NCBI RefSeq assembly: GCF_009389715.1
Contig: NC_052407.1
Coordinates: 7,784,475 to 7,848,474, forward strand
DNA: 64,000 nucleotides
Origin: Phoenix dactylifera
Lineage: Eukaryota > Streptophyta > Magnoliopsida > Arecales > Arecaceae
Direction of reading: 5' to 3'
Below the pieces are notes generated by a model. That model made no database searches, was not told the origin of the DNA, and saw only the letters and a list, made by a program, of their open reading frames with translations. Of the stretch, positions 23,169-64,000 are shown piece after piece. How positions within the stretch are numbered: position 1 is the first letter of the stretch; each line of letters opens with the position of its first letter. A program made the position numbers and the translations under genes.

Positions 23169-26100
23169 TCAAAGAGTGAGTTTATTTGCAATATTGCAGC
23201 AAAGCTGCTTCAGGGCTTGGAAGCTGTCGTCATCAAGTGAAATGGAAGCCATACGCTTCAATATTTCCACCTCAGAGACACTATCGAAATCAGATTTTGT
23301 GTGGTAAACAAAGTAGCCCCCACATTCCCAAGCAGAAAGATGGCACCCCATCAGCACTTTATGGACCTGTTTACACACACAAACAGTTATTTACTATTCA
23401 ACATTAAGAAACAGATATTGGTTATTATCTTACCAGGATCACATAAAACAAGGCCTAATTTCACAAGTGACAGCAGATGGAGGGTTCTGATGACATCAAG
23501 GAAGCCAACTAACAAGAATTAGACTTTTAAATTTCACAAACTCCTGTAATCTAACTTCTTTGAATGAAACAGCCAGCTACTTTGGAATATAGGATCAGGG
23601 CTGAACAATCTCTATTTAGGAGGGGGCCCTGACAAAAAGGTGGCCAATTTTGCATAGACATGGATATGAGAACTGGATTCCAGCACGTGTTCAAGTATCT
23701 AACTCAACAAGAGGGGAAAAAAAGAGATACAGAGATACATAGAACCAAGGTCCGCCGTACCGGTACCGGTCGGCGTACCGGTACCGGTCGGCGTACCGGT
23801 AGCGGCCCGGACCGGTCCCGTACCGGTCCGAACCGGTTTCATACCGATCCGAACCGGTTCCGTACCGGTTCTCCAACAATAAACTACCGGTACCAGATTC
23901 CACGCTGATCCGGTACCGGTCCCAGGCCGGACCGGTACGGCAGGCCATGCATAGAACAATAATTTCAATTAAACCATATATTTATTTGTCAATATTGTAT
24001 AAAAGAAAATATTAGAATATATATTGTTAAGGTCCTTCACCATAAATAGGCCTGTCAACGAGCCGAGCCGAGCCCGAGCTTGAGAAGGCTCGGGCTCGGC
24101 TCGTTTCACAGAACTCGGGCTCGGGCTCGGTACCGAGCTCTGTATTGAGCTTGAGCTCGGGCTTGTTTGGTAAAAGAAAAGCTCGGGCTTGGGCTCGTAA
24201 AGCTCGTTTCGAGCTCGAGCTCGAGCCCCATAACAAAAATCTACATTAAATACCACAAATGAGGCTCTTACATCATTAAAATGAGGCCCATTTTCTTGGT
24301 CTCACTGTTGTGGCTCGAGCTCGTTTGGGCTCGTGAGCTACTCGGGCTCGAGCTCGAATTTAAACGAGCCTCATTTTAGGCTCGGGCTCGAGCTCGTTTG
24401 ACTAACGAGCCGAGCTCGAGCCGAGCTTTTAACGGGCCAAGCCCGAGCCGAGCCCAAGCAGCTCGGCTCGTTAACAGGCCTAACCATAAAAACTCGCTAA
24501 TTTTGAGAGATACAAGAAAAAGGATATTTTGCAAATTTATTTCAATATCTACATCTTTGACCAATCTCGATAAAAGGCAAAAAAGGTCACTTTCAAGTTT
24601 CAACAATAACATGGTGGGTTGAATTGATTATTGAAAGAGTCAAAATTATATATCTATTTGTAAAAGCTGGAAAAAGAAGCTAAGCATCTAAGTATAAGCA
24701 TCCAAGCATTTGATGCGTATCCAATTCAGATACGTATCTGACACATATTCTTGGACCCAAACAGGAGTGTCCATGTAACATAGGAGATGGTTATCACCAA
24801 CAAAACAGTCATTGGTTCCAAAAAGGCCTCAAAGAACCAGTAAGAACTTGAAGTATTGAAGCTATTTAACTAGATCTCTTCTTGATAGTACAAGTTGTTA
24901 ATGATTCCATGTGCAACATATTCCTTGAAGCATTCCATGGTGACAATGTTGAGATATAGTTTATCTAAAGAACAAGAGAGTACCTATATTTCATTTCAGT
25001 GTTATTATCTTTTCTCCAACAGACTAAAAATAATAATAATAACCACTTTTTGAACTTGGTTGTAGGCGGCAATCATTTCGTTTTACCTTGTTTTCACTCA
25101 ATCAAATTAAAGCATGTCTAGCTCACGGAAGATAATGTAAGAGTAGCACAAAATTCCAAAAAAGTGGATGGACTCGGAAACCATGTTTACCTGAGGAAAC
25201 AAGAATATTTTTGCGCCACAATCAGAGATCAGCAGATTAAATGCAGCATCATGGTTATGCAAGGTGGAACATATTTCTGCTACTACATCAGCTAGTGCTT
25301 TCAAGTTCTTGCTTATGAAAACTAAGGCCTTTAGAGGATAATGTGCAACTTCACAGATACATATCCCTGTTGTGAGCAGATCACCATATACAGGGACGGT
25401 CGGAAGAACCTCCACAGGTAAAGGGTTCGCAAAGTAACTAGCCTGCACAAAAAATGGAAGGAAAATGTTAGTTGACCAGTTATTATATTTTTACTACAAT
25501 CTTTGTCTGAAAAATTCAGACCATCCTGCTTGTCAGTGGTGTTGGCCAACCTTTATTTTGCAAACAATATGCATAGCATTTTGAATATTTCTCTATGTTT
25601 GGTATTAAAAACTCAACAGAGGCGGCAAAGTTTTTAAAAATGATAGGGCAAAGGGTGAACACAGTATGTATAAAGCACCGATCAGTGTTAGAGCTCAGAA
25701 ATTACTATATACTACAAAGCACAACATGTTATTCAAATATAGGTGATTACTTAAAAGGAAAAAAAGAAGAGAGACAATATAATGCAGTAAAACCACCTAT
25801 GTGAGAACCCTTGCAAGAACATCTAAAAGTGGCAACATCCTTCCACCTGTGCTGAAGAGACATAGCATCCATACATAACATAATGATACATTCATACTGT
25901 GAAAAAGTAACAGGGTAACATACCGCTTGATATAATAAAATTAGAAATTGCTAGTCTATATTACATTCAGGAACGTACTGAAAAAAACTTTGTCAAAAGA
26001 CTGAATAGGATGGTAACAACAGGTGTCTCAAAGAAAGATCCTTACCATCAAGGCACGTATAAGGGACTCAATGGTAATATAAATAACGAATATTTTTCCT

Positions 26101-29100
26101 GTGATTTATTGCATATAACCAAAAATTGGTGCATATTTCATAAATCTGGTTTTCCATTCATCATTGCATATTGCATATCCTCCACATCAGATTTCAAAAA
26201 CCTCATGGCCTCTTTGGTATATGTACAGAAAGCCTGCACCACTTAGCAGCAGCATGACATACTCGTGCATTGGCTAAGCTTCAATTTAATCAGCAAAATA
26301 TGATGTCAAAAAAAGTCATGAAAATAGTGAGGATTATGTTATTCAAGATATAATGTGAACAATAGAAACATGTTATCATTATAAGTGAAAATAGATGGAT
26401 GAAATTTGTAAGATGTATTCATGACAAAAGTGATGTGAGAATTAACTAGAACTCTTCAGGAATTCCCTTGAATTATTTAAAGAATTCAGTAAAAAGTTAG
26501 AAAGATAGAACTATTAATAGCTTTTCTTAATCAAATTAACATTCAAGAACTTTTTTCTTGTGAAAGAAATGGCAATAGTTGCATTTGCATTCAAATAAAC
26601 TGAAAAAAAACTAAATAAGCACCCAACAGCAGTCCAGCCCTAACCCAGATTTTGGGCAGGATCTCTCCCGTCCGAGTTCTCAAAAGGAAAAAAAAAAAAG
26701 CTAATTAGCTTCACATCACTCTGTTTTTGTAGTATTATCACACACACCTTACATCTGAATATCTCATGCATGAGAGACCTCTTTGTACATGACAATTCAT
26801 AGCTCCTTTTAGTATCTAACGTTTAACTCAAAACTCATAGACTAACAATAGAGGCTAAGATATGTGCTCCAAAGCTTGGCCAGGTTAGGTTAACGTATAG
26901 GCGGGCATGACCAAGACCTGTTTACGTTATTTCAATGCTTGTAAATAAATTAACATACCATCTTAAGTCATTGCCAATGACCAATTAGTAGGGGTGACAC
27001 TCAGGTTGGGTAAACCCATACCTAACCAACCTCAACATGTTTGCATACCACTCACCACTTCTCTCAGGCTTGGATCAAAAGTGTCAAGCTGATTACAGGT
27101 TGAGTGAGTTTTGATGAAGAACTAGTGCACCCAGGTGCAATCTGAATTTTATAATATGACATCTGCGTGAGTTTTGAATGAAGAACTAGTGCACCATGTG
27201 CAATCTGAATTTTATAATATGACATCCAACCACATTCCAAGCCTAACCATATATCTAAAATAAGCTCAACCAATCCCAGCCTAAAATTGGCCTAAACAAT
27301 AAATTTACGAGTAAAATCCTGTAAAACATACAATATAAACCAAGCCAATTTGAGCTCAACCTTAAAGACCTAAACCAGATTTTTGACAGTTAAAACTAAT
27401 GGCCCTTGCCCTGTAATCTTATGCCGATCTGTACGTACAGAAGGAAATCTTGATAATATACAAGCTAAAGCTCATCAATGCACAATAGAAGTTGGCAAGA
27501 TTATTACCTGAAAATATATCTGATCTGAACAAGTAGAATCACTGTGGTTGAAGAAAATACGAAAAGCACAATTATTTACTTCAACAGCAATCTGTGTGAT
27601 CAATCCAAACATCTTCTTGTCCAGAGATTGAGGCAATTGATGGATCTTGTATGGCATTAAGAAGACATGACCATACTCAACAGGATTTGCCTTACAAAAG
27701 GAGATCAGAATCAATGATAAACTAAAAACAAAGAATCTTGAGAATCTAGTTTAAAAGTACATCATACAAACACAGCCTAATTACTTACATTAATAACAAT
27801 CAATATTCCATCTTTTGGTACGATAGTCGAAGGAATAATCTCAGAGCTCTCCTTTTCTCCATGTGCAACACAAAAAAGTATATCCTCCTTGCAAATTTTT
27901 ATACAGCTTGACTTGATAGGCTCCAAAGTTTGGAGGACATTGTTCTCAAAATTTTGCAGGAAATTTGGATTCCAATTCTCATTCAACTGAGTGACAAAAT
28001 TCTTTTCACCACTGACAACCTGCAGAAGCATCACATATAAGGCTTATAGTAATTCTCGAAGATCAATAAATAAAAGCATGAATTGCATCAATTAGAACCC
28101 AAAAAAGACCTTTATTTCACAGGTGGTAACATCATACTTGAGCAGACCCTTCGATGCATGATCTTCCCACTGCGAGGCAACAATTTATAGATTTAAAAGA
28201 TAGTCCGGAATAAAATCAAAATATAAAGAACATTCATATAGATGATGTACCTGAGAAAGAAGAAGGGCATCCAATAAACTTTGCGTCTCTTCGGCTGTGA
28301 ATGGAAAACTCACATAGGCATCATTGCCTTCAGTAGGACTACCAAGCCAGTAAACATGTGTTCTAACACCCAAAAAATTTCCTAAAAATTGAGAAAAAAC
28401 TGTAAATAGTTAAAGTTCCTAAAACAGCTCAAAATCAGACACACATTTAGAATAAGTTTTAGGTGTTTAGCATGCCAGATCAAAATTTTACTTTAATAAG
28501 AAACAAAACTTAACTAAACAGTCAAGAACTAGGACCATTCCTCCATAATTTTTAAAGGATGTACTATTTAGACATTTTAAGCATAATGGCAAATTGTTAA
28601 CCTCTGTCCAGGAACCCAATTATGAATTTTGACCAGGAAAAGGTTCTGGGTGTAAACTTGTACATACAAATTGGACCAATTCCCCTACCTCTGCTCATCC
28701 ATATATGCTGATATTTGAAGAATGCTTCACAATTTGATTGATTAGAGAGACAATCACATTTTCAGGAAGAGAAATCAATTATGGCAGGTCTGCTTCTGGA
28801 ATGGCCCCTGCAACAGCCTGGCAATGGCTAATGTGGACTTCTGTTTTTCCTGCTAAACTAGACCCAGTTGTTCAGGCTGACAGTTGGGGTTGTGCTTCTG
28901 CTAGATAGACCCACCAAAAAAAAGAGAAGGAAAAGAAAAGGAAAGTAAATGGTAACATTTGCTAACTAGGGGAAGCCCATAATGACATCATAAAAATGTA
29001 ATTAGAGTAGGATGGTTACAAACTTTGCATTAGCCAAGTTCATTATGGAAGAAATAGCAAAAGAAATCTGAAGAGAGAATACCAGAGTTAGGATGAATAA

Positions 29101-29838
29101 AACATTGTGGACAGTAACATGAATTCAAATCTAGGCAAATGGGAAAACAAGGGAATGCTTGGTTGCTAAGCTACCTTCTCTATATGATATCTTGTACATA
29201 AGTGAGAAATTTAGTGCGAAGCCATTGAATCATTAGAGGAGGAGAGGCAGAGGACGAAAGAATTAGATGAGATTGGAGAGACTTCTGACCCTGCTACACC
29301 TCAAACATAACATCAACTGCAATTTCTCCAAACCACTCCGAACATGGAAGCCTAAAATAGTGGATAAATGGATGAAAACAGTTAGACTATTGCCAAGAAA
29401 GTGAAAGAATTAGTTATGTTGGAATCTTCTTTTCCAATGTTTGATAGTTGAAAGGAAATTCAAAAGGAAAATTTTTAAAAGAATTTTTGAATGGATTAGC
29501 TTTTTAGCTTCTATGACATAGCTACATCTTGCTAACAAATATACATTGAATTATGTTAAAAGAATTCCAAGGCTGACTTAATATGACAGTGACAGCCAGA
29601 GCAACCATATATTTCAATATGAAGAATTGCAATTAAGTGGGTGCATTAATAATAACTCCGGCAGGGGGGGGGTGGGGGGTGGACATGTGAACAAGACACA
29701 AATCAACAGGGAGAGATAAAAAGAAAAAAGAAAAAAAGCAATACCTGTGAAAGCCACTTTGTGACATTTGGACTGCTCCAAGCCAGGGTTCTGCTTCAGA
29801 AATGGGTATTCCCCATCAACCTGAGTGACTGATGCCAT
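23169..29838 (-). CDS. VTC2/GDP-hexose phosphorylase-family protein lacking the catalytic histidines, seven coding exons
   Basis: Read leftward, exons 29838-29745, 28381-28251, 28169-28110, 28019-27789, 27690-27508, 25442-25191 and 23366-23169 join in phase with GT-AG borders to about 382 residues. The chain follows GDP-L-galactose phosphorylase (VTC2/VTC5): LLDALLLSQWEDHASKGL, then FVTQLNENWNPN, then NPVEYGHVFLMPYKIHQLPQ, then FNLLISDCGAKIFLFPQ, ending ILKRMASISLDDDSFQALK. VTC2 enzymes carry out the committed step of plant ascorbate synthesis through a HIT-type motif, NHLHFQ. Here exon 5 ends SDQIYFQ, so both histidines are gone while the following residues are kept. About a dozen residues expected between exons 6 and 7 are also missing; a short exon may be unseen, or the protein may be shorter. 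The frames are otherwise clean, which suggests an expressed non-catalytic paralogue rather than a pseudogene. Function unknown. Confidence 0.82.
23746..23949. mobile_element. hAT-type MITE, 204 bp, GTACCG-rich
   Basis: The ends pair as terminal inverted repeats (CAAGGTCCGCCGTACCGG against CATGGCCTGCCGTACCGG, 15 of 18 alike). The flanks are the 8-bp duplication CATAGAAC (23738-23745 and 23950-23957). The interior is a tandem of TACCGGT-type hexamers and heptamers. Eight-base duplications and CA-G ends point to the hAT superfamily. It lies in the large intron before the last exon of the VTC2-like gene. Confidence 0.82.
24047..24482. mobile_element. hAT-type MITE, 436 bp, GAGCTCG-rich
   Basis: Terminal inverted repeats of 22 bp (TAGGCCTGTYAACGAGCCG onward) differ at one base. 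The flanks are the perfect 8-bp duplication ACCATAAA (24039-24046 and 24483-24490). The subterminal regions are dense in GAGCTCGAGCC and its variants on both strands, so the single strand could fold extensively. It is non-coding. It lies 97 bp from the previous MITE, in the same intron. Confidence 0.9.
27104..27229. repeat. 63-bp tandem duplication in an intron
   Basis: Two adjacent copies starting GTGAGTTTTGA at 27104 and 27167, about 90 percent alike, in the intron between coding exons 5 and 6 of the VTC2-like gene. Confidence 0.85.
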
Positions 29839-31006
29839 ATTTTACGATGCTTAATGCACTAATAACTAAGAAAAGCTACCAAAAAAAAGTTGATCAAGCT
29901 TCAGAACCACCGCCTGCAAGGAATGTCAGATCTGAAGGATGCCCACCAGCAGATGGTAGGGCACCCCGTCCACCGTGAAAAGAAGGGGAAGCAAGCAAAA
30001 ACTTAGAGAAACCTTGCAAGCATTCTCTTCCCCTTCTAATAATAAGACGGTATTCTTTGCTTAGAGCCGTGGTTGATTTACTGAAGCCAGCCCTAATCGG
30101 ACTAGCAATTCCCAAACAGCACCAACAAATTCAAAAGAATCTCCCAGCAGAAATCAACAATGAAGCAATTCAAAGAACACCAACTGTTCTTCTTGATTCA
30201 GACTGCCAAGCTCTGCCACAACTACTCAATAGCTTCTGCTTTTCTCTCGGAGACTGAACCGATCCATGTCACAGTTCAGAACTCAAAAGCTTCCAAATAT
30301 ATCCTTCTTCCGACCTGGATATCTCGGCGAAGAATTTAAACCTATTTTGATCAAATTACAAACAAAATTTTCTCATAAACATATAAAAATCCCACAAATA
30401 AAAAGATTTTATCATCGATTCAGATATCCACAGACAGATGGATCAATCCAAATTCTAGAAAAAGAAGGGGACAATAATGTCTTTCAACCAAAAACTTACC
30501 TCGGCCCAGCGGGCGAACATGCCGGGCTCCGGCTCCGCGCACCTGCTGACACCTTTCGAAGCACTTTCACGTGTAACAATAGATCGAACCAAAACGAAGA
30601 AAAGTCAAATATTTAACACAAATCGAATAAAATTTGAAGTATTTCAAAACAATGAAACCAAAAAATCAAGCTTCATAACCCTAGATTACCGAAATTTGAG
30701 CACAACAAAGCAAGAATTTCTCCTCAAGGATCAAATCCTAAACCCCAATTCTCGAACAAACGCAATTGGGCCACGAAAAATTCCCAGAGAGGGGCATAGA
30801 AGACATGCGAGAGAGAGGCGGAGAGAGAGGGAGAGAGATCAAAGAGCGCGGAGCGGTGGGGCGATCGAAGATACCTAGGGTTCTTGAAAGACGAGGAAGC
30901 GGACGGGAGAAAAGAGCCGTCTTTGGGGAAGCGAAAACCGAGAGGTAAATCGTGTGGTTCTGTTGACGTGCCGGAGAGCTCTAAAAGCTATCGGTTCTAT
31001 TTATAG
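29839..31006 (-). promoter_or_regulatory. TATA box, non-coding first exon and leader intron of the VTC2-like gene
   Basis: On the minus strand CTATAAATAG lies at 31006-30997, a textbook TATA box. Transcription would start near 30970. A donor AACCCTAG|GTATC at 30875/30874 and an acceptor CTTTTCTTAG at 29866 define a leader intron of about 1 kb. The translated exon then begins 27 bases upstream of the ATG at 29838. The splice sites are read from sequence only. Confidence 0.65.
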
Positions 31007-37778: not shown

Positions 37779-40319
37779 TCAGCATCCATCAGCTTTCGGC
37801 TCTACAGAATTTTCAACAATGTTTTCTGCTTCTAAAGAAGCTTCCTCTTCTCCCTCTGTGATGCCTGGAAGACTAAGAGACATATCAGCAAACCTCATCT
37901 GACTCCCTGAATAGGAATTGGCATCTGTACTTCGCATATAAGCTTCATGCAGCTGCAAGACATACTCCAAGTGCCACAAGACCTCACCCATTGTAGGGCG
38001 GTTCTTTCCCTCATCAGCAATGCATTTCTCTGCAATATCACCAAACTTTTTCAAGGATTCAGGTGAATAATTTCCTTCCAGACGGGGGTCTATGATGGTC
38101 TCAATTGACTGCTGGCGTTGCCAATGGACTGCCCATTCAGCAAGGTTAATCTGATCCCTCGGCAAGCTTGGATTTATAACTGGCCTAGCGCACACAACTT
38201 CAAAGAGAACCACACCAAAAGAATATACATCTGATTTCTGAGTTAGTTGTTGACGTCGGAAGTACTCAGGATCAAGATACCCAAAACTTCCCTTCACAGC
38301 GGTACTGACATGGGTGTGGTCCAATGCCGGGCCATCTTTCGACAGCCCGAAATCTGCCATTTTTGCAACAAAATTTTCGTCCAACAATATATTTGTAGTC
38401 TTAACATCCCGGTGGATTATACCCCTCTCTGCACCTGTGTGAAGGTAGTGAAGCCCGCGTGCAGCACCAATGCATGCATCGAGCCGCTGCTTCCACGTGA
38501 GAGGTGGGAGATCACTCCCAAAGAGATGGCTTCTCAGAGTCCCATTTGCCATGTATTCATAAACTAAAATCATCTCATTTTGTTCATCACAATACCCAAT
38601 CATGGAGACAAGGTGCCGGTGACGGAGCTTTGACAGCATTTCTATTTCAGTTTCAAATTCCTTTAGGCCCTGCTCAGATTGTGGATGTGCCCGTTTGACT
38701 GCGACCAGGTTCCCCTCTTCGAGCTCACCCTTGTAGACCTTACCAAAACCTCCACTTCCAATAATTAAGGCCTCATCAAAATTTTTGGTTGCTGCTCTAA
38801 TTTCTGCAATGGTGAACCTTCTGCCCATCCTATTAGCAGCCATTGATCCTTTAGAATTTGGAGATGATTTCAATGCTTGGGCCTTTGAGGTGCTTCCCAT
38901 GGTCCCATGAAGGAAGGGTGGGAGCCAACCGGAAGGATTGCTCTTTTCCTCTGGAGGTGTTTTCTTCTTACGAATGCAATGGCACATAAAAATAGCAGAC
39001 AGTATCATAATAGCAATGACTGAACCAACACCTGCAACAATTGCTGCCCATAGAACCTTACTCTTTTGCTTTGTAGCAGGCAAACCTCCCCTACCAGTGT
39101 CAATTCTCCCTGGAGCATGAGCAAGATTCCCATTGTGGCTGAGCTTGAAGATCTCCAGACCATTTAGAAGTGCATCAGTACCCGAAGCACTTGTAGATGA
39201 GTCTGGGCCCAGCTGAAGCCACAGAGTGTCGATCTGCTGTGAAACAGCATCAACATAGTCCTCATGATAGGCTTTGTTCTTCCCACCTGCCTTGACAAAC
39301 ACATCGTAGTTCTCAGCTGCTGTCTTATTATTTATATAAATCCTGAAAATTCTCATGTTTGGTTTATCATATATCACCTCACAAAAGTGCAACCGGACTA
39401 AGTAATCAAAGTTTGGATCCACATCAAACTTCCATGACATGTTGAATCTCTTCTCAAGAACGTCATTATCAATCATTGTCCTCCCTGTTTCATAGACTAA
39501 TAGAGGTGCAATCGAAGTATCATTAGCCGAGGCATAGGTTACAGTTGAAGTATTAGAAATAGTATTTGCAGTATTCAAAGAAAACATGAACCTCTCATCT
39601 GATTCCCATCTTCTCCAAACACTTTGATCTTCAATGGATTTTATCTTAGGCCCTCCCACATTCAACCTATACATGGTCTCAATCCCATGGTCCATCAAAG
39701 GCAGAGAACTCTTTAAACCACCCACTTTGTTCGCAGAATCAGTAAACAACTTATGGAGGACTGGAATCACTTCCATAGCATTCACAAAGGCAAATGACCC
39801 AGAGTCAGGAATAAACTCAATCTGCAGCTTGTTTGAACTGATACCAAGGAAGTATTCTTTCACCAGAGAGGTGTCAGTGGAGTTGCTCCTCATGTTCTTC
39901 CAGTAAATCTCCCCTGGGACATCGAACTTGGATACCAACTTCAGACTGTTTGCCATGACATCGAAGGCAGACTCATTAACATTAAAGTTTTCAAAGGAGA
40001 AAGCATAGAAGTGAAGCCTAATGCAATAAGTCCCAGACACCAAGCTGAAGTTGTAGCTTGACGATGCGTTGAAGATCCGGGCAGTTTTATACAAATTTCC
40101 ATACAGCTGATCTCCGCTGATCGCGGCAGTCGATGCAAGGACTCCAGGAGAGCTCAGGGTAAAATTATCAGCAGGAACTGAATCTCCAGTCCAATTTCTT
40201 CCATCAACACTAATGCTGGAATTAGATCCACAATCAACCAGAAAAGATTTCACTTGAGCTTGTCCAAGTCTCAGAAAAACCGAAACTAAAAGCAGTAAAA
40301 GAAGCCCAGAGAGCTTCAT
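37779..40319 (-). CDS. HERK2: HERK2-type CrRLK1L receptor-like protein kinase, intact
   Basis: A single open frame of 846 residues. Signal peptide about 1-22; malectin-like ectodomain about 25-395 with many N-glycosylation sites; membrane span about 422-448; Ser/Thr kinase about 515-790. Kinase landmarks are all present: glycine loop GSGGFGKV (521-528), Lys542 in VAVK, HRDVK (636-640), DFG (656-658) and DPE (683-685). GKNRPTMGEVLWHLEYVLQLHEA near the end and the YRLNVGGPK and HFCEVI phrases match Arabidopsis HERK2 (At1g30570) better than THESEUS1, HERK1 or FERONIA, as far as I recall those sequences. CrRLK1L kinases sit in the plasma membrane, sense cell-wall state or RALF peptides and control cell elongation; HERK2 acts partly redundantly with HERK1 and THE1. 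An intronless coding region is normal for the family. Confidence 0.94.
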   Translation of the reverse strand: MKLSGLLLLLLVSVFLRLGQAQVKSFLVDCGSNSSISVDGRNWTGDSVPADNFTLSSPGVLASTAAISGDQLYGNLYKTARIFNASSSYNFSLVSGTYCIRLHFYAFSFENFNVNESAFDVMANSLKLVSKFDVPGEIYWKNMRSNSTDTSLVKEYFLGISSNKLQIEFIPDSGSFAFVNAMEVIPVLHKLFTDSANKVGGLKSSLPLMDHGIETMYRLNVGGPKIKSIEDQSVWRRWESDERFMFSLNTANTISNTSTVTYASANDTSIAPLLVYETGRTMIDNDVLEKRFNMSWKFDVDPNFDYLVRLHFCEVIYDKPNMRIFRIYINNKTAAENYDVFVKAGGKNKAYHEDYVDAVSQQIDTLWLQLGPDSSTSASGTDALLNGLEIFKLSHNGNLAHAPGRIDTGRGGLPATKQKSKVLWAAIVAGVGSVIAIMILSAIFMCHCIRKKKTPPEEKSNPSGWLPPFLHGTMGSTSKAQALKSSPNSKGSMAANRMGRRFTIAEIRAATKNFDEALIIGSGGFGKVYKGELEEGNLVAVKRAHPQSEQGLKEFETEIEMLSKLRHRHLVSMIGYCDEQNEMILVYEYMANGTLRSHLFGSDLPPLTWKQRLDACIGAARGLHYLHTGAERGIIHRDVKTTNILLDENFVAKMADFGLSKDGPALDHTHVSTAVKGSFGYLDPEYFRRQQLTQKSDVYSFGVVLFEVVCARPVINPSLPRDQINLAEWAVHWQRQQSIETIIDPRLEGNYSPESLKKFGDIAEKCIADEGKNRPTMGEVLWHLEYVLQLHEAYMRSTDANSYSGSQMRFADMSLSLPGITEGEEEASLEAENIVENSVEPKADGC

Positions 40320-41155
40320 TCTTCAGATCAACTCAATTCGGAAGAACTTCTTATCTTCTTTTGCAAACCAAATGGAAGACCTTTAGAAGGTTGGATCACA
40401 ACAGGGAAGAAGCTAATCTCCTCAAAAACTGTTTCATGAACTATAAGAATTTAGAAGTCTCTAACTCTACAAATCTTTCAAATCTCCAGGCTTTCAGAAG
40501 GGAAATATTTACATTACCTTCTTGAATATTATCAGTTGCACTGCTCTCAAAAATAAACCCAAAGCAAATTCTAACACCCAAATAACCGATGGAAAAATAG
40601 AAAAATAAATCAACAAGGAAGATAAATCTGGGAATAGAATAGTTTCAGCTGACAACCATCAATATAATTCCTTTTTCAGCCAAAAAAAATCCACCTGGGC
40701 AAATCTGCAAACTCTAAAGAACAATTCTTACTGTATCTGAAGCTGAACTTGCAGATCTGAAATAAAAACAACCTCCAAAAAGGAAACCAACAACACTGAG
40801 TAAATGCATAAAGGAAAGATTTTTGTTTCAAAGAATCGATTTTTTTTCTTTTGCTTACCTGGTGGTGATGAACATCCGCCCAAAGAAAAGTAGCCCTCGC
40901 AGTTTTTGCCAATAGGTTCTCCACTCCCGTGTTTTAAACAGGAAAGGCAATAGTTTTGGGAAATGATTGTTATTTTTGGCTTGCTGCAATAACCCGCGAA
41001 GGAACCAGAACAATTTGATTAATAGCTTTGTCTTTACGCTTCTTTGAAGCCTCTCTCTCTCTCTCTCTCTCTCTCCCCCTGGTTTTTCAAATATTTTACG
41101 AAGGACGACAAGGTGGTTGGCATCAGCGACTGCAGATACGGAAAAATCCATCTTT
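40320..41155 (-). promoter_or_regulatory. HERK2 5' leader with leader intron and GA microsatellite
   Basis: On the minus strand a strong donor CACCAG|GTAAGC lies at 40859/40858, well upstream of the ATG at 40319, so a leader intron of up to about 500 bp is likely. The upstream exon contains a (GA)n run (41051-41086 as CT on the plus strand), a common feature of plant leaders. An ATG at 41151 opens a frame across this exon; it would be an upstream ORF if transcription starts farther out. The acceptor was not fixed. Confidence 0.5.
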
Positions 41156-52126: not shown

Positions 52127-52680
52127 TCATTCAACCAAGGGATCAGTAGACAGGAAACTATACATGACCACGTCTCTAGCCTTGTCCTTTATCATTATAT
52201 ACTTCCTCATCACCGCTTCCCTCTGGAACCCGGCCTTCTCTAGCACCCTGTGAGACCTTCTGTTTCCACGTCGGCGATGGCGTCGACCCTCTCCAAATGC
52301 GGCCACTGCTTGAAAATCATGGCCACTGCCTTCTTGACGGCTGCCGTAGTTATTCCCCGTCCCCAGTCATCATAGGCCAAGCCATAACCAATGTGCTTCT
52401 CATGGCCAGGTACCGGCCAGATGGAGACCGAGCCCACCGGCCGGTCCTCGATGCAGATGGCACGGCACCAAGGGTGTGGCATGATGAAGCTCTTGATGTA
52501 ATCCAAGGCCTCGTCCTTGGTGCTGCATGCTTCTTTTGTGGTGAAGCGCATCACACGGTCGTCAGATTGCCATCTCATGAGATCTTCCACATCCGAGAGC
52601 TTGAATGGGCGGAGGATGATATATGGAATTGGTTGTCTTCTCCTCCTCCACCAACTGGCTTGGTTGGGGGCCGGCGCCAC
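52127..52680 (-). pseudogene. p20-like GNAT acetyltransferase, frame-broken copy
   Basis: The frame from 52680 reads a RimJ/RimL-type GNAT: YIILRPFKLSDVEDLMRWQS, PVGSVSIWPVPG, then the acetyl-CoA-binding stretch YDDWGRGITTAAVKKA. After IADVE the frame changes near 52264 and stops at 52240. One base appears missing relative to the intact paralogue at 56113-56718. The other frame continues the family (HRVLEKAGFQREAVMRKYI, then DVVMYSFLSTDPLV) to a stop at 52127. The conserved tail implies recent loss, or a base-calling or assembly error. Without the tail the last strands of the GNAT fold would be missing. Confidence 0.85.
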
Positions 52681-53629
52681 TTTCCATTTGGCTGGAGCTT
52701 GGCCTGATTTGATGGGGAGTAGCTTTTTATGGACTGGAGGATGCGTCAGCGGTCAAATTCTCAGTTTGCGTGGCCGTAGGTTTTAAAGTTTAAAAATTAC
52801 AACTTGTTATTTGGATATTTCACCATGTAACGAGGAGTCAGATGCTGTCCTTGCACCCAAAGAATATATTAAAAAAAATGTTGCCCTCCTCAATGTTTAC
52901 CATTAGAACTATCTAGCAGAGTACGACTGTTTGCTGGTTTTTTTTTTTTTTTTTTTTGCTAGGATGGATGGATCATATCCAAAGAGCATGATGCATTCAA
53001 TAAAATCAAAAAATAGAATATCTCGAAGTGCCAAGAGCATCTTTCCATCTTCAGTCCACAGGATATTTTTGGAGTGACAAGCTACATATGCAGCCACCAA
53101 TCCGCAGTACTATTGGCTTCACGGTAAATATGTTTGGTCTGAAAAGGCCCTCCAACTTTTACCGTAACCCAAATATGTGTCGGAGTGCTTTTCTCCTATA
53201 ATATTTTCAACTTAGAAGATGTGGATCAGAAAAAGAGGATAAGACAACTACTATAGCAGTGAAGAATGGAAACATGGTGTCCTGCCAAAGAAATAAAACG
53301 AAACATGGTGGCCGCGACCGTTGACTAGGTAAAACCAAGCTTGCGATTTGAGTAACAAACTTCGTTACTTGGGGAACAAGTAGTAGCTCTATAACGACCA
53401 TTCTCTTTTGGCCGCCAAGCCATTTATCAGTGCAAGTTTCACATTGTTTACCTAAACCACTAGGCACTAGTTACTCCAACTGAGAATCATTATGAATTGA
53501 ATCAGGTTGAAGATACGTAGCATCGTACAAGAACTAAAAACTGAATTGATACATTTGATTTCCTTCAATCTAATTGACACAAGAACAAAAAAATTGAGAT
53601 ATGAATCCAAATCTTTATTGCCGGCATTG
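52681..53629. other. Spacer between the broken GNAT copy and a Gypsy LTR
   Basis: Poly-T tract at about 52939-52957. No gene recognised. The left part should hold the promoter of the GNAT copy. Confidence 0.45.
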
Positions 53630-56112: not shown

Positions 56113-56718
56113 TTACCCAACCAAGGGGTCAGTGGATATGAAGCTATACATCACCATGTCCCTAATACTTCCTTTAAGAATCGCATACTTTCGGAGCACT
56201 CCCTCCTTATGAAAGCCAACCTTCTGCAACACCCTCTGGGATGCCTTGTTGTCCACGTCCACCAAGGCACTCACCCTCTCCAGTCCTTCCACCTCCTTAA
56301 ATATGGAGCCCACCACCAGCCTCACCGCCGCCGTCACAATCCCCTTCCCCCAGTACTCGGACCCCAGCACGTACCCGAGCTCGCCCCGGAACCGCTCCTC
56401 GCCGGAGCCCAAGCTGACGGAGATGGCCCCCACGGGGCGGCCGCCGACGCAGATAGAGCGGAACCAGGGGTGGGGCAGCACCGTCTCCTTCACGTACTTG
56501 AGGAGGTCATCCTTGTTAGTGTAAGTGTCCCAGGTGCAGAATTTGCTCACCTTGTCGTCGGAAGCCCACACCATGAAATCGTCCACGTCCGAGAGGACGA
56601 AAGGGCGGAGGGAGATCTGCGGCGTCGCCTTCTCGCTTTCCTCCGTGTTCACCTCTCGTTCCATTGTGGGTGATTGCCGCACCAGAGGAGGACCTGTTTT
56701 TTTCTTTCCCAGGGACAA
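56113..56718 (-). CDS. p20-like GNAT N-acetyltransferase, intact
   Basis: A 201-residue open frame. After a short polar N-terminus the GNAT domain (Acetyltransf_3, RimJ/RimL type) spans about 34-197: ISLRPFVLSDVDDFMVWASD, RPVGAISVSLGSGEERFRGE, the CoA-binding motif EYWGKGIVTAAVR (121-133) and the tail ASQRVLQKVGFHKEGVLRKY. Proteins of this type move an acetyl group from acetyl-CoA to an amino group. In plants they are usually named after Bacillus p20, and their substrates are unknown. Translation could instead start at Met19, where the paralogue similarity begins. It is a near-tandem duplicate of the broken copy 3.4 kb to the left, same strand. Confidence 0.9.
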   Translation of the reverse strand: MSLGKKKTGPPLVRQSPTMEREVNTEESEKATPQISLRPFVLSDVDDFMVWASDDKVSKFCTWDTYTNKDDLLKYVKETVLPHPWFRSICVGGRPVGAISVSLGSGEERFRGELGYVLGSEYWGKGIVTAAVRLVVGSIFKEVEGLERVSALVDVDNKASQRVLQKVGFHKEGVLRKYAILKGSIRDMVMYSFISTDPLVG

Positions 56719-56879
56719 GTCTTCCTCAAGTTTTTATGTGATCCTCGGAAGCCTCCATACGGTCCCCACTTCGGCAAGCCAGCCGCCTCGTTTGACGGTT
56801 TCTCTCGTCATTATCCTTCGGGGTGTCATGTGCATCCAACACGATTTGACCTTACTCTCCCAAGGCCACTATAGCCCTA

Positions 56880-62080: not shown

Positions 62081-64000
62081 CGGACTTCTGGCCGAGGCGT
62101 CTAGCGTCGTCCGGCATTAATTATAGTATCCTAGCAGGATCGCATATCAGGTTGTCTAAAGATTACGAAACTTCCTATTAGGACGAACGCGATCATAAAT
62201 GAAGAATAGCAAAAATCACTGAAGAAGATAAAACTTATGCTCAGAACAGAGAAACCCTCGGGGCCCTATTGATGATACACTCGGAGGTTTTCGAAACTCC
62301 AACTTCGTGGAATGGGGATCCCTTCGAGGGATTCGAGCTTGTACGCTCCGGGTCGTTGGACGCGCGCGACCCGATAGGGTCCTTCCCAATTTGGGGCCAA
62401 CTTCCCTTGCTCGGCCAGCTGGGAAGCTTCAGCTCTTCTAAGGACGAGGTCTCCCACTTTGAAGGATTTGAATTTGACCCTGGCGTTGTAGTATTGCGCC
62501 ACCTTTTGCTGGTATCTCGCCATGCGGACCTGGGCGGCTTTCCTTGTCTTCTCGATGAGATCCAGGTTGCTCCTGAGCTGCGTAGCACTGGAGTCGGCAT
62601 CATAACATTCTACCCTTGGAGAAGGGAGTCCGATTTCCAACGGGATGACGGCCTCCGTTCCGTACGTTAAGTTGAAGGGAGTCTCGCCGATGGGTACGCG
62701 GAATGTGGTCCGATAAGCCACAAGACGTTGTATAGGTCTTCGACCCACTGCCCTTTGGACTGATCGAGCCTGGTTTTGAGTCCCTGCAAAATAGTATGAT
62801 TCGTTATCTTGGTTTCTCCATTTGCCTGAGGATGTGCAACCGAGGTGAAACGGTGGTCGATGCCGAGCTCCGAGCAGAATTCTCTAAAATGAGCGTTGTC
62901 GAACTGGCGGCCGTTATCTGATATGAGGATGTGGGGGAGCCCGAATCTACAAATTATGAACTTCCAAATGAAGTCCTGCATCTTCTGCTCGGTGATCCGG
63001 GCCACTGGATCGGCCTCGACCCACTTCGTGAAGTAATCAATGGAGACGATCAGAAATTTCCTCTGCCCAGTCGCCAAGGGGAACGGTCCCAGGATATCGA
63101 TTCCCCATTGAGCGAATGGCCAGGGAGAGCTGATTGAAGTCAAGGGGGCTGAGGGTCGGCGCTGGATGTTGGCATTCCTCTGGCACCGGTCGCATCTCCG
63201 AACAAAATCCAGCGTATCCTTCTGGAGTGTTGGCCAATAGTATCCCTGGCGCAAAATTTTGTATGCCAGTGCTCGGCTTCCCAAATGGTTTCCGCAGATG
63301 CCTTCGTGGACTTCGCGCATTGCGTAATCCGCCTCCGACGGGTAGAGACATCTGAGAAGGGGAGAGGTAAAGGATCTCCTGTAGAGCTTGCCTTCATACA
63401 GTATGTATCTCGAGGCTATGCGCTTGACTCGACGAGCCTCACGCTCATCGTTGGAAAGAACTCCATTCTGTAGGTAGCTAACGAGCTCATCCATCCAGCT
63501 TGGCTCAACGTCGATACAAAGAGCCGGTTCGGGCTCCTCTGTGCTGGGAATCTGGAGGTACTCCAGTGCTGCCGCTTTTGGGAGCTCGCTTATGCGGGAG
63601 GACGCCAATTTTGATAATTGGTCGGCTCTGAGATTCTCCGACCTAGCAATATGTTGAATGTGGAAGGAACCCAGAGTCAAAGTGAGGTGCCGCACCTTCT
63701 GGAGATATTTTTGCATTGTCGGCTCCCTTGCTTCGAAGTCCCCCAAAATTTGGCTTACAACCAATTGGGAGTCACTGAAGGCCTCCAAGTTCTCGACCTT
63801 CAGCTCTCTAGCCAGCTTAAGCCCGACTATGAGCGCTTCGTATTCCGCCACATTATTAGAGAAGAAAAACTCGAGGCGTAAAGCCTGCTCGGCGACCACT
63901 TCATCTGGACTGGTGAGAATGAGGCCCGCTCCGCTACCCCCCGAGTTCGAAGAACCATCGACGTGCAGAGTCCACGTCGACCTCGGGGTCTACTCTGCTG

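Follow-up and report, generated by a model that had tools for sequence, protein, structure and literature searches.

A date palm relative of GGP (VTC2/VTC5) without the catalytic histidines carries an upstream open reading frame of the GGP type

GDP-L-galactose phosphorylase (GGP; VTC2/VTC5) is described as the chief point at which vitamin C synthesis is controlled, and its upstream open reading frame (uORF) has been a target of editing aimed at higher ascorbate (PMC11066809, PMC6878703, PMC12559526; statements on cited papers, here and below, refer to excerpts of their text). The uORF is ACG-started, conserved and repressive, with ribosome stalling proposed at high ascorbate (PMC11066809, PMC12559526, PMC6878703, PMC11066804). 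Mutating the histidines of the HxHxQ histidine-triad (HIT) motif of GGP disrupts substrate binding and activity, and the same paper describes three GGP homologues, from rice, Amborella and Physcomitrium, that have lost the HIT domain together with the nuclear localisation sequence (PMC12537018, 2025). Here, we analysed a gene on the minus strand of a 64,000-nucleotide stretch of the Phoenix dactylifera genome, termed the window (assembly GCF_009389715.1, contig NC_052407.1, positions 7,784,475 to 7,848,474), whose product belongs to the GGP family and has lost the HIT motif. To judge from the sequence, what is new within this known family is a duplicate pair of HIT-less genes that bear a uORF and are under constraint; no HIT-less GGP homologue with a retained uORF was found in print in open-licence PubMed Central, judged mostly from listings.

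The gene runs from 29838 to 23169 of the window in seven exons with GT donors and AG acceptors, whose in-frame joining gives 383 codons, stop codon included, and a protein of 382 residues, as a first-pass annotation of the sequence had proposed in describing seven clean, in-phase exons. In a single BLASTP comparison, the core matched one ordinary GGP of the same genome with 108/319 identities (34%, E 1e-58). Junctions 2/3 to 6/7 are all of phase 0 and match in position those of the ordinary GGP designated C9, while the other four ordinary GGPs match at all of them except junction 3/4, so that core homology and intron positions together place the gene in the GGP/VTC2 family by descent. Since the intron after exon 3 is common to the HIT-less genes and C9 and absent from the other four, the HIT-less gene is not derived from those four after their intron loss. 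The parts of the gene, from exon assembly and alignment, are as follows.

29745..29838, minus strand: exon 1 with the ATG, 94 nt (exon assembly)
28251..28381, minus strand: exon 2, 131 nt; 119 nt in the duplicate on contig 11, where the acceptor has moved and the frame is preserved
28110..28169, minus strand: exon 3, WEDHASKGLLKYDVTTCEIK; among the five ordinary GGPs, only C9 has the intron that follows
27789..28019, minus strand: exon 4 (exon assembly)
27948..27977, minus strand: NWNPNFLQNF where ordinary GGPs have RHLKKRPTEF; KKRP lost (alignment)
27508..27690, minus strand: exon 5, ANPVEYGHV... through ...SDQIYFQ (exon assembly, alignment)
27508..27522, minus strand: QIYFQ replacing HLHFQ; HxHxQ catalytic site lost (alignment)
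25191..25442, minus strand: exon 6, containing FNLLISDCG (exon assembly)
23169..23366, minus strand: exon 7, ending in the stop TGA (exon assembly)

Intron 6 also holds GTACCGGT-type tandem arrays at 23756-23871 and a GAGCTCGGGCTCG-rich stretch at about 24050-24480, the latter judged by eye.

The end of exon 5 reads C-S-D-Q-I-Y-F-Q in the window, and the duplicate on contig 11 (C11) has the same residues (S-DQIYFQ, a QxYxQ site), whereas all five ordinary GGPs of the genome read INHLHFQ, so that the HxHxQ motif, HLHFQ in the ordinary genes, is QIYFQ in both HIT-less copies. The altered motif in a GGP-like protein, the central claim of the first-pass annotation, was thus confirmed; its further claim that exactly the histidines had gone proved too narrow. 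The alignment shows that the KKRP signal, a nuclear localisation signal reported as a feature of grass GGPs (PMC6878703), is gone from the pair, one residue is absent ahead of the motif, and past exon 6 the alignment has 12 empty columns. The five ordinary GGPs are invariant at 193 core columns; both HIT-less copies keep 73 of these and both have lost 106, and 91 of the 106 have changed to an identical residue or gap. Within the catalytic block, GYNSLGAFATINHLHFQ, only 2 of 17 invariant columns are kept in both copies, compared with 71/176 elsewhere (Fisher p 0.020, a description only, as the bounds of the block were chosen after the motif had been seen); the other 15 are not kept in both, a third kept residue, one asparagine, being present in the window copy alone. 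The NPVEYGHV histidine and the closing Q of HxHxQ are retained in both copies, and the NPVEYGHV and FNLLISDCG stretches are close to their ordinary GGP counterparts. Histidine-based GMP transfer should not be expected of such a protein, which has probably lost catalysis.

The source assembly (773,078,369 bases, 2391 contigs) was searched for further members of the family. Exon 5 found seven places, namely the window, the close copy on C11 and five places at 35-39% identity; exon 6 found the same seven genes and contig C1021, and exon 7 gave matches nowhere but in the window and C11. In the C11 copy, seven exons with GT-AG borders add up to 1146 bases including the stop, in the same frame as the window copy and uninterrupted by an internal stop, and exons 5 and 6 are separated by an intron of 22 kb; neither HIT-less copy carries a stop or frameshift. 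Positions 1-30963 of the window are colinear in order and orientation with C11 24.511-24.570 Mb, two stray matches aside, and past 30963 come weaker matches, not strictly ordered, to C11 24.573-24.577 Mb, plus one stray; given this colinearity, the pair is a segmental or whole-genome duplicate. Five ordinary GGP genes (C14, C10, C1, C7 and C9) were assembled from the genome, and the core of the HIT-less pair is 35-38% identical to four of them and 31-32% identical to C9. In an unrooted protein tree of the seven cores, the HIT-less pair and the five ordinary genes were split at 100/100; three of the four inner branches were unresolved and were given no weight. C1021 was excluded from counts, alignments and tree, and alignment A1 held six of the seven cores, that of C10 being left out. 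The match on this unplaced contig (C1021:35023-35268) is a partial, near-identical copy of the C14 GGP and perhaps a haplotig, and C9 (C9:15690616-15691147) is the most divergent ordinary GGP, with HLHFQ intact and no recognisable uORF peptide upstream.

Comparison of the upstream frames of the seven genes revealed a peptide common to the HIT-less pair and ordinary genes, and an ACG-started uORF encoding this conserved peptide lies before the main ATG in both the window and the C11 copy.

29894..30070, minus strand: uORF with an ACG start in CCACGGCT context, 58 codons and TGA, ending ...HGGRGALPSAGGHPSDLTFLAGGGSEA, 55 nt before the main ATG

The CCACGGCT start context is the same in C14 and C10, and over the HGGRG...AGGG stretch 23 of 24 residues are identical between the window uORF and the C14 GGP uORF, the ends of the two peptides reading HGGRGALPSAGGHPSDLTFLAGGGSEA and HGGRGALPSAGGHPSDLLFLAGGG, respectively. 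This GGP-type uORF, which the first-pass annotation had missed, lends support to the link with ascorbate regulation that it had offered as a possibility. Scoring the 34-residue end of the uORF peptide across the genome gave seven places. Six belong to the GGP family, with E between 6e-15 and 0.34: the window, C11, C14, C10 and C1 at E 9e-8 or better, and C7 at E 0.34 with a broken frame. The seventh is an unrelated place on C14 (E 4.6) and contains a stop. Upstream of the C7 GGP exon (12114565-12114717), the frame opened by the ACG is not that of the conserved uORF end, which continues into the main coding frame as a 135-codon open frame, a naturally altered uORF. Upstream of the window uORF, a GC-rich patch ending GAG/GTAAGT at about 30335-30520 on the minus strand was noted by eye as a possible 5′ leader exon and intron.

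Between the two HIT-less copies, the uORF differs at 7 of 177 bases (4.0%) without gaps, compared with 53/266 (20%) in three introns (p 4e-7) and 9/55 (16%) in the spacer between uORF and ATG (p 0.004 for uORF versus spacer), and 194 of 586 aligned bases differ in the 600 bases upstream. Differences in the coding exons range from 6.6% in exon 5 (12/183) up to about 16% in exons 1 and 2 and in exon 4. The uORF is therefore the least-changed part among those compared, with exon 5 close behind.

Constraint on the protein was measured from the same pair as the ratio of nonsynonymous to synonymous substitution rates (dN/dS). By maximum likelihood (ML), dN/dS between the window and C11 copies was 0.55 over 378 codons (2 delta lnL 8.6, p 0.0034 against 1) and 0.49 in the core (p 0.0024), while the ordinary pairs C14-C10 and C1-C7 gave 0.22 and 0.17; NG86 estimates were 0.45 for the whole HIT-less pair (Fisher p 3.5e-5) and 0.40 for its core, against 0.16 and 0.14 for the ordinary pairs. 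By exon, the NG86 ratio was 0.35-0.44 in exons 3-7 and 0.71 in exons 1 and 2 combined. The three short introns of the pair have diverged by 0.23, similar to dS, indicating that nonsynonymous sites have changed at about half the neutral rate. In a neutral simulation with substitutions only, at 0.1 per site per lineage and no indels, 3.2 stops arose per copy, and the chance of none in both copies was about 0.0014. Tree branches of 0.017 (window copy) and 0.16 (C11) changes per column lean to a faster C11; a relative-rate count, in which changes polarised by ordinary genes numbered 10 versus 15 with 26 uninformative (p 0.42), gave no clear asymmetry. Ratios between the HIT-less and ordinary genes were discarded, dS being saturated. 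Constraint on the HIT-less protein is thus real but relaxed: dN/dS is significantly below 1 (0.45-0.55) but not as far below it as in ordinary GGP pairs (0.14-0.22), so that the value well below 1 which the first-pass annotation had set as a check is borne out only in part. With a second copy bearing the same altered site and no stop or frameshift in either, the annotation's retained GGP relative without catalytic histidines stands.

Set beside GGP (VTC2/VTC5), the palm genes are alike in homology along the whole core, in the places and phase of their introns and in an ACG uORF whose 24-residue peptide differs at a single residue, and unlike in having no HxHxQ, a replaced catalytic block, no KKRP and 12 residues missing after exon 6. 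The HIT-lacking homologues of rice, Amborella and Physcomitrium share the same double loss by description, and this suggests that the palm pair may belong to the same ancient lineage, orthology being our reading of that likeness. That paper also reports a basal clade of six homologues, in which its excerpted text does not place the three, and its section 6 gives no uORF, duplication or selection for them (PMC12537018). Likened equally by description are ADP-glucose phosphorylase At5g18200 and the C. elegans GDP-glucose enzyme, two-histidine nucleotide-sugar phosphorylases which are, however, active; At5g18200 has otherwise low sequence similarity to GGP (PMC11066809). In the excerpts of a study of 149 GGP sequences, HIT-less members are not mentioned, and some sequences are without MEME motifs (PMC7640755). 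Scanning prokaryote genome contigs and viral contigs with a six-row alignment produced 74 and 13 pattern matches, respectively, and no confirmed relative with which to root the tree. Pfam and NCBIfam scans found no family covering the whole protein, the sole Pfam match for six of the seven family cores was a weak one in a single member (E 0.22), and PDB gave no significant match, whether with the protein (best a HIT protein, E 0.097) or with a profile (CASC5 chains at E 0.58 and 0.65, a HIT protein at E 0.77).

The reading we tentatively favour is that the gene is an old GGP/VTC2 paralogue kept as a non-catalytic partner of GGP and made when ascorbate is low. A uORF kept on a relative of GGP that has no catalytic site suggests a regulator rather than a dying gene. 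A uORF of the GGP type would shut off the HIT-less protein at high ascorbate in parallel with GGP, and at low ascorbate the protein would be made alongside GGP. A brake at high ascorbate gives negative feedback only if the product promotes ascorbate synthesis, and hence a helper would be expected rather than an inhibitor. Such a helper might pair with GGP or occupy the PAS/LOV photoreceptor protein (PLP), an inhibitor that binds to GGP in darkness (PMC10602610). The sequence establishes the gene structure, the absence of the site from both copies, the constraint on the pair and a conserved uORF confined in this genome to GGP-family loci; transcription of the gene, activity of its uORF, loss of catalysis, the partner role and its sign we infer.

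Several results weigh against this reading. The HIT-less pair is less constrained than the ordinary pairs (Fisher tests on rounded counts, p 0.005 and 0.0005), and under such relaxed constraint the protein could be slowly eroding. Exon 5, with its 12/183 differences, is nearly as conserved as the uORF, and the seven differences in the uORF split into 4 synonymous and 3 nonsynonymous; as its synonymous sites are conserved too, the pair alone is no proof of selection on the peptide, the case for which rests on likeness to ordinary uORFs, from which the N-terminal half and the last residues differ. The C9 GGP gave no uORF-peptide match in the genome-wide scoring, and about 13.8 kb of sequence before C9 exon 3, read in its three forward frames, lacks the strings GALPS and DLLFLAG. 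A word search of three papers turned up no mention of a GGP dimer or homodimer, and a review among the papers cited for the uORF (PMC11066809, PMC12559526, PMC6878703, PMC11066804) states that direct evidence for ascorbate itself enhancing the stalling is lacking.

Other explanations account for parts of these data. It is unlikely, though of all the alternatives the one we would entertain most readily, that the gene encodes a functional protein which has left ascorbate metabolism for a new substrate or a scaffold role, its uORF answering another signal or being inherited expression control. Core identity to ordinary GGPs of only 31-38% and the lost KKRP fit this, and the tyrosine replacing the second histidine could in principle serve other chemistry; the 24 uORF residues held in common with ordinary GGP, nearly unchanged, do not. 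Rather less credit is due to a pseudoenzyme retained as an inhibitor or buffer of GGP, for instance a dominant-negative partner or a sink for GDP-L-galactose. A dead paralogue still binding its partner is a common mode of inhibition, a general precedent for this idea, and the NPVEYGHV and FNLLISDCG stretches remain close to those of ordinary GGP; against it, with this uORF the inhibitor would disappear when ascorbate is high, giving positive feedback, and with the catalytic-site block replaced, substrate binding is doubtful. That the protein still cleaves GDP-sugars through other residues is very improbable: the final Q of HxHxQ and the GHV histidine are kept in both copies, but both motif histidines are replaced identically in the two, 2/17 block residues survive in both, and histidine mutation disrupts substrate binding and activity in GGP itself (PMC12537018).

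We also hold it improbable that the gene is a decaying duplicate whose uORF and frame have so far escaped damage. The NG86 ratios per exon, from 0.35 up to 0.71 in exons 1 and 2 and relaxed relative to ordinary GGP, speak for decay, as do branch lengths of 0.017 and 0.16 that look as if C11 were faster, even though the relative-rate p is 0.42; two intact copies with dN/dS below 1, kept splice sites, a little-changed uORF and the same altered site argue the other way. An equally poor prospect is that the uORF peptide or leader is the main conserved element and the downstream protein a by-product, as the differences between copies in the uORF (4.0%), introns (20%) and 55-nt spacer (16%) might imply, given that the protein is constrained too and exon 5 differs at 12/183 bases only. 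Three further candidates were rejected: an assembly error or sequencing slip, by the identical altered motif residues in the C11 copy; a pseudogene, by the intact second copy and dN/dS below 1; and a retrocopy origin, by the introns in common with ordinary GGPs.

Elsewhere in the window, all on the minus strand, 37779-40322 is an 847-codon open frame for a malectin-like receptor kinase (Pfam Malectin_like and kinase domains), and 52240-52752 and 56113-56733 are two frames for GNAT acetyltransferases (Acetyltransf_3), separated by about 3.4 kb and perhaps paired in tandem. Open frames at 62266-63989 resemble, by eye, what we take to be the RNase H and integrase part of a retrotransposon.

Returning to the non-catalytic partner, a wider version of this reading, which is possible but doubtful, gives vitamin C feedback in land plants a second output gated by ascorbate: a GGP paralogue kept though catalytically dead, which acts as a non-catalytic subunit or as a decoy for PLP and is translated under a uORF like that of the enzyme. 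If this is true, ascorbate sets the levels of both the enzyme and its helper. A uORF kept with the catalytic block gone would uncouple the sensor from the enzyme, making the HIT-less pair a natural test of which peptide features matter and pointing to an unstudied player in the control of ascorbate.

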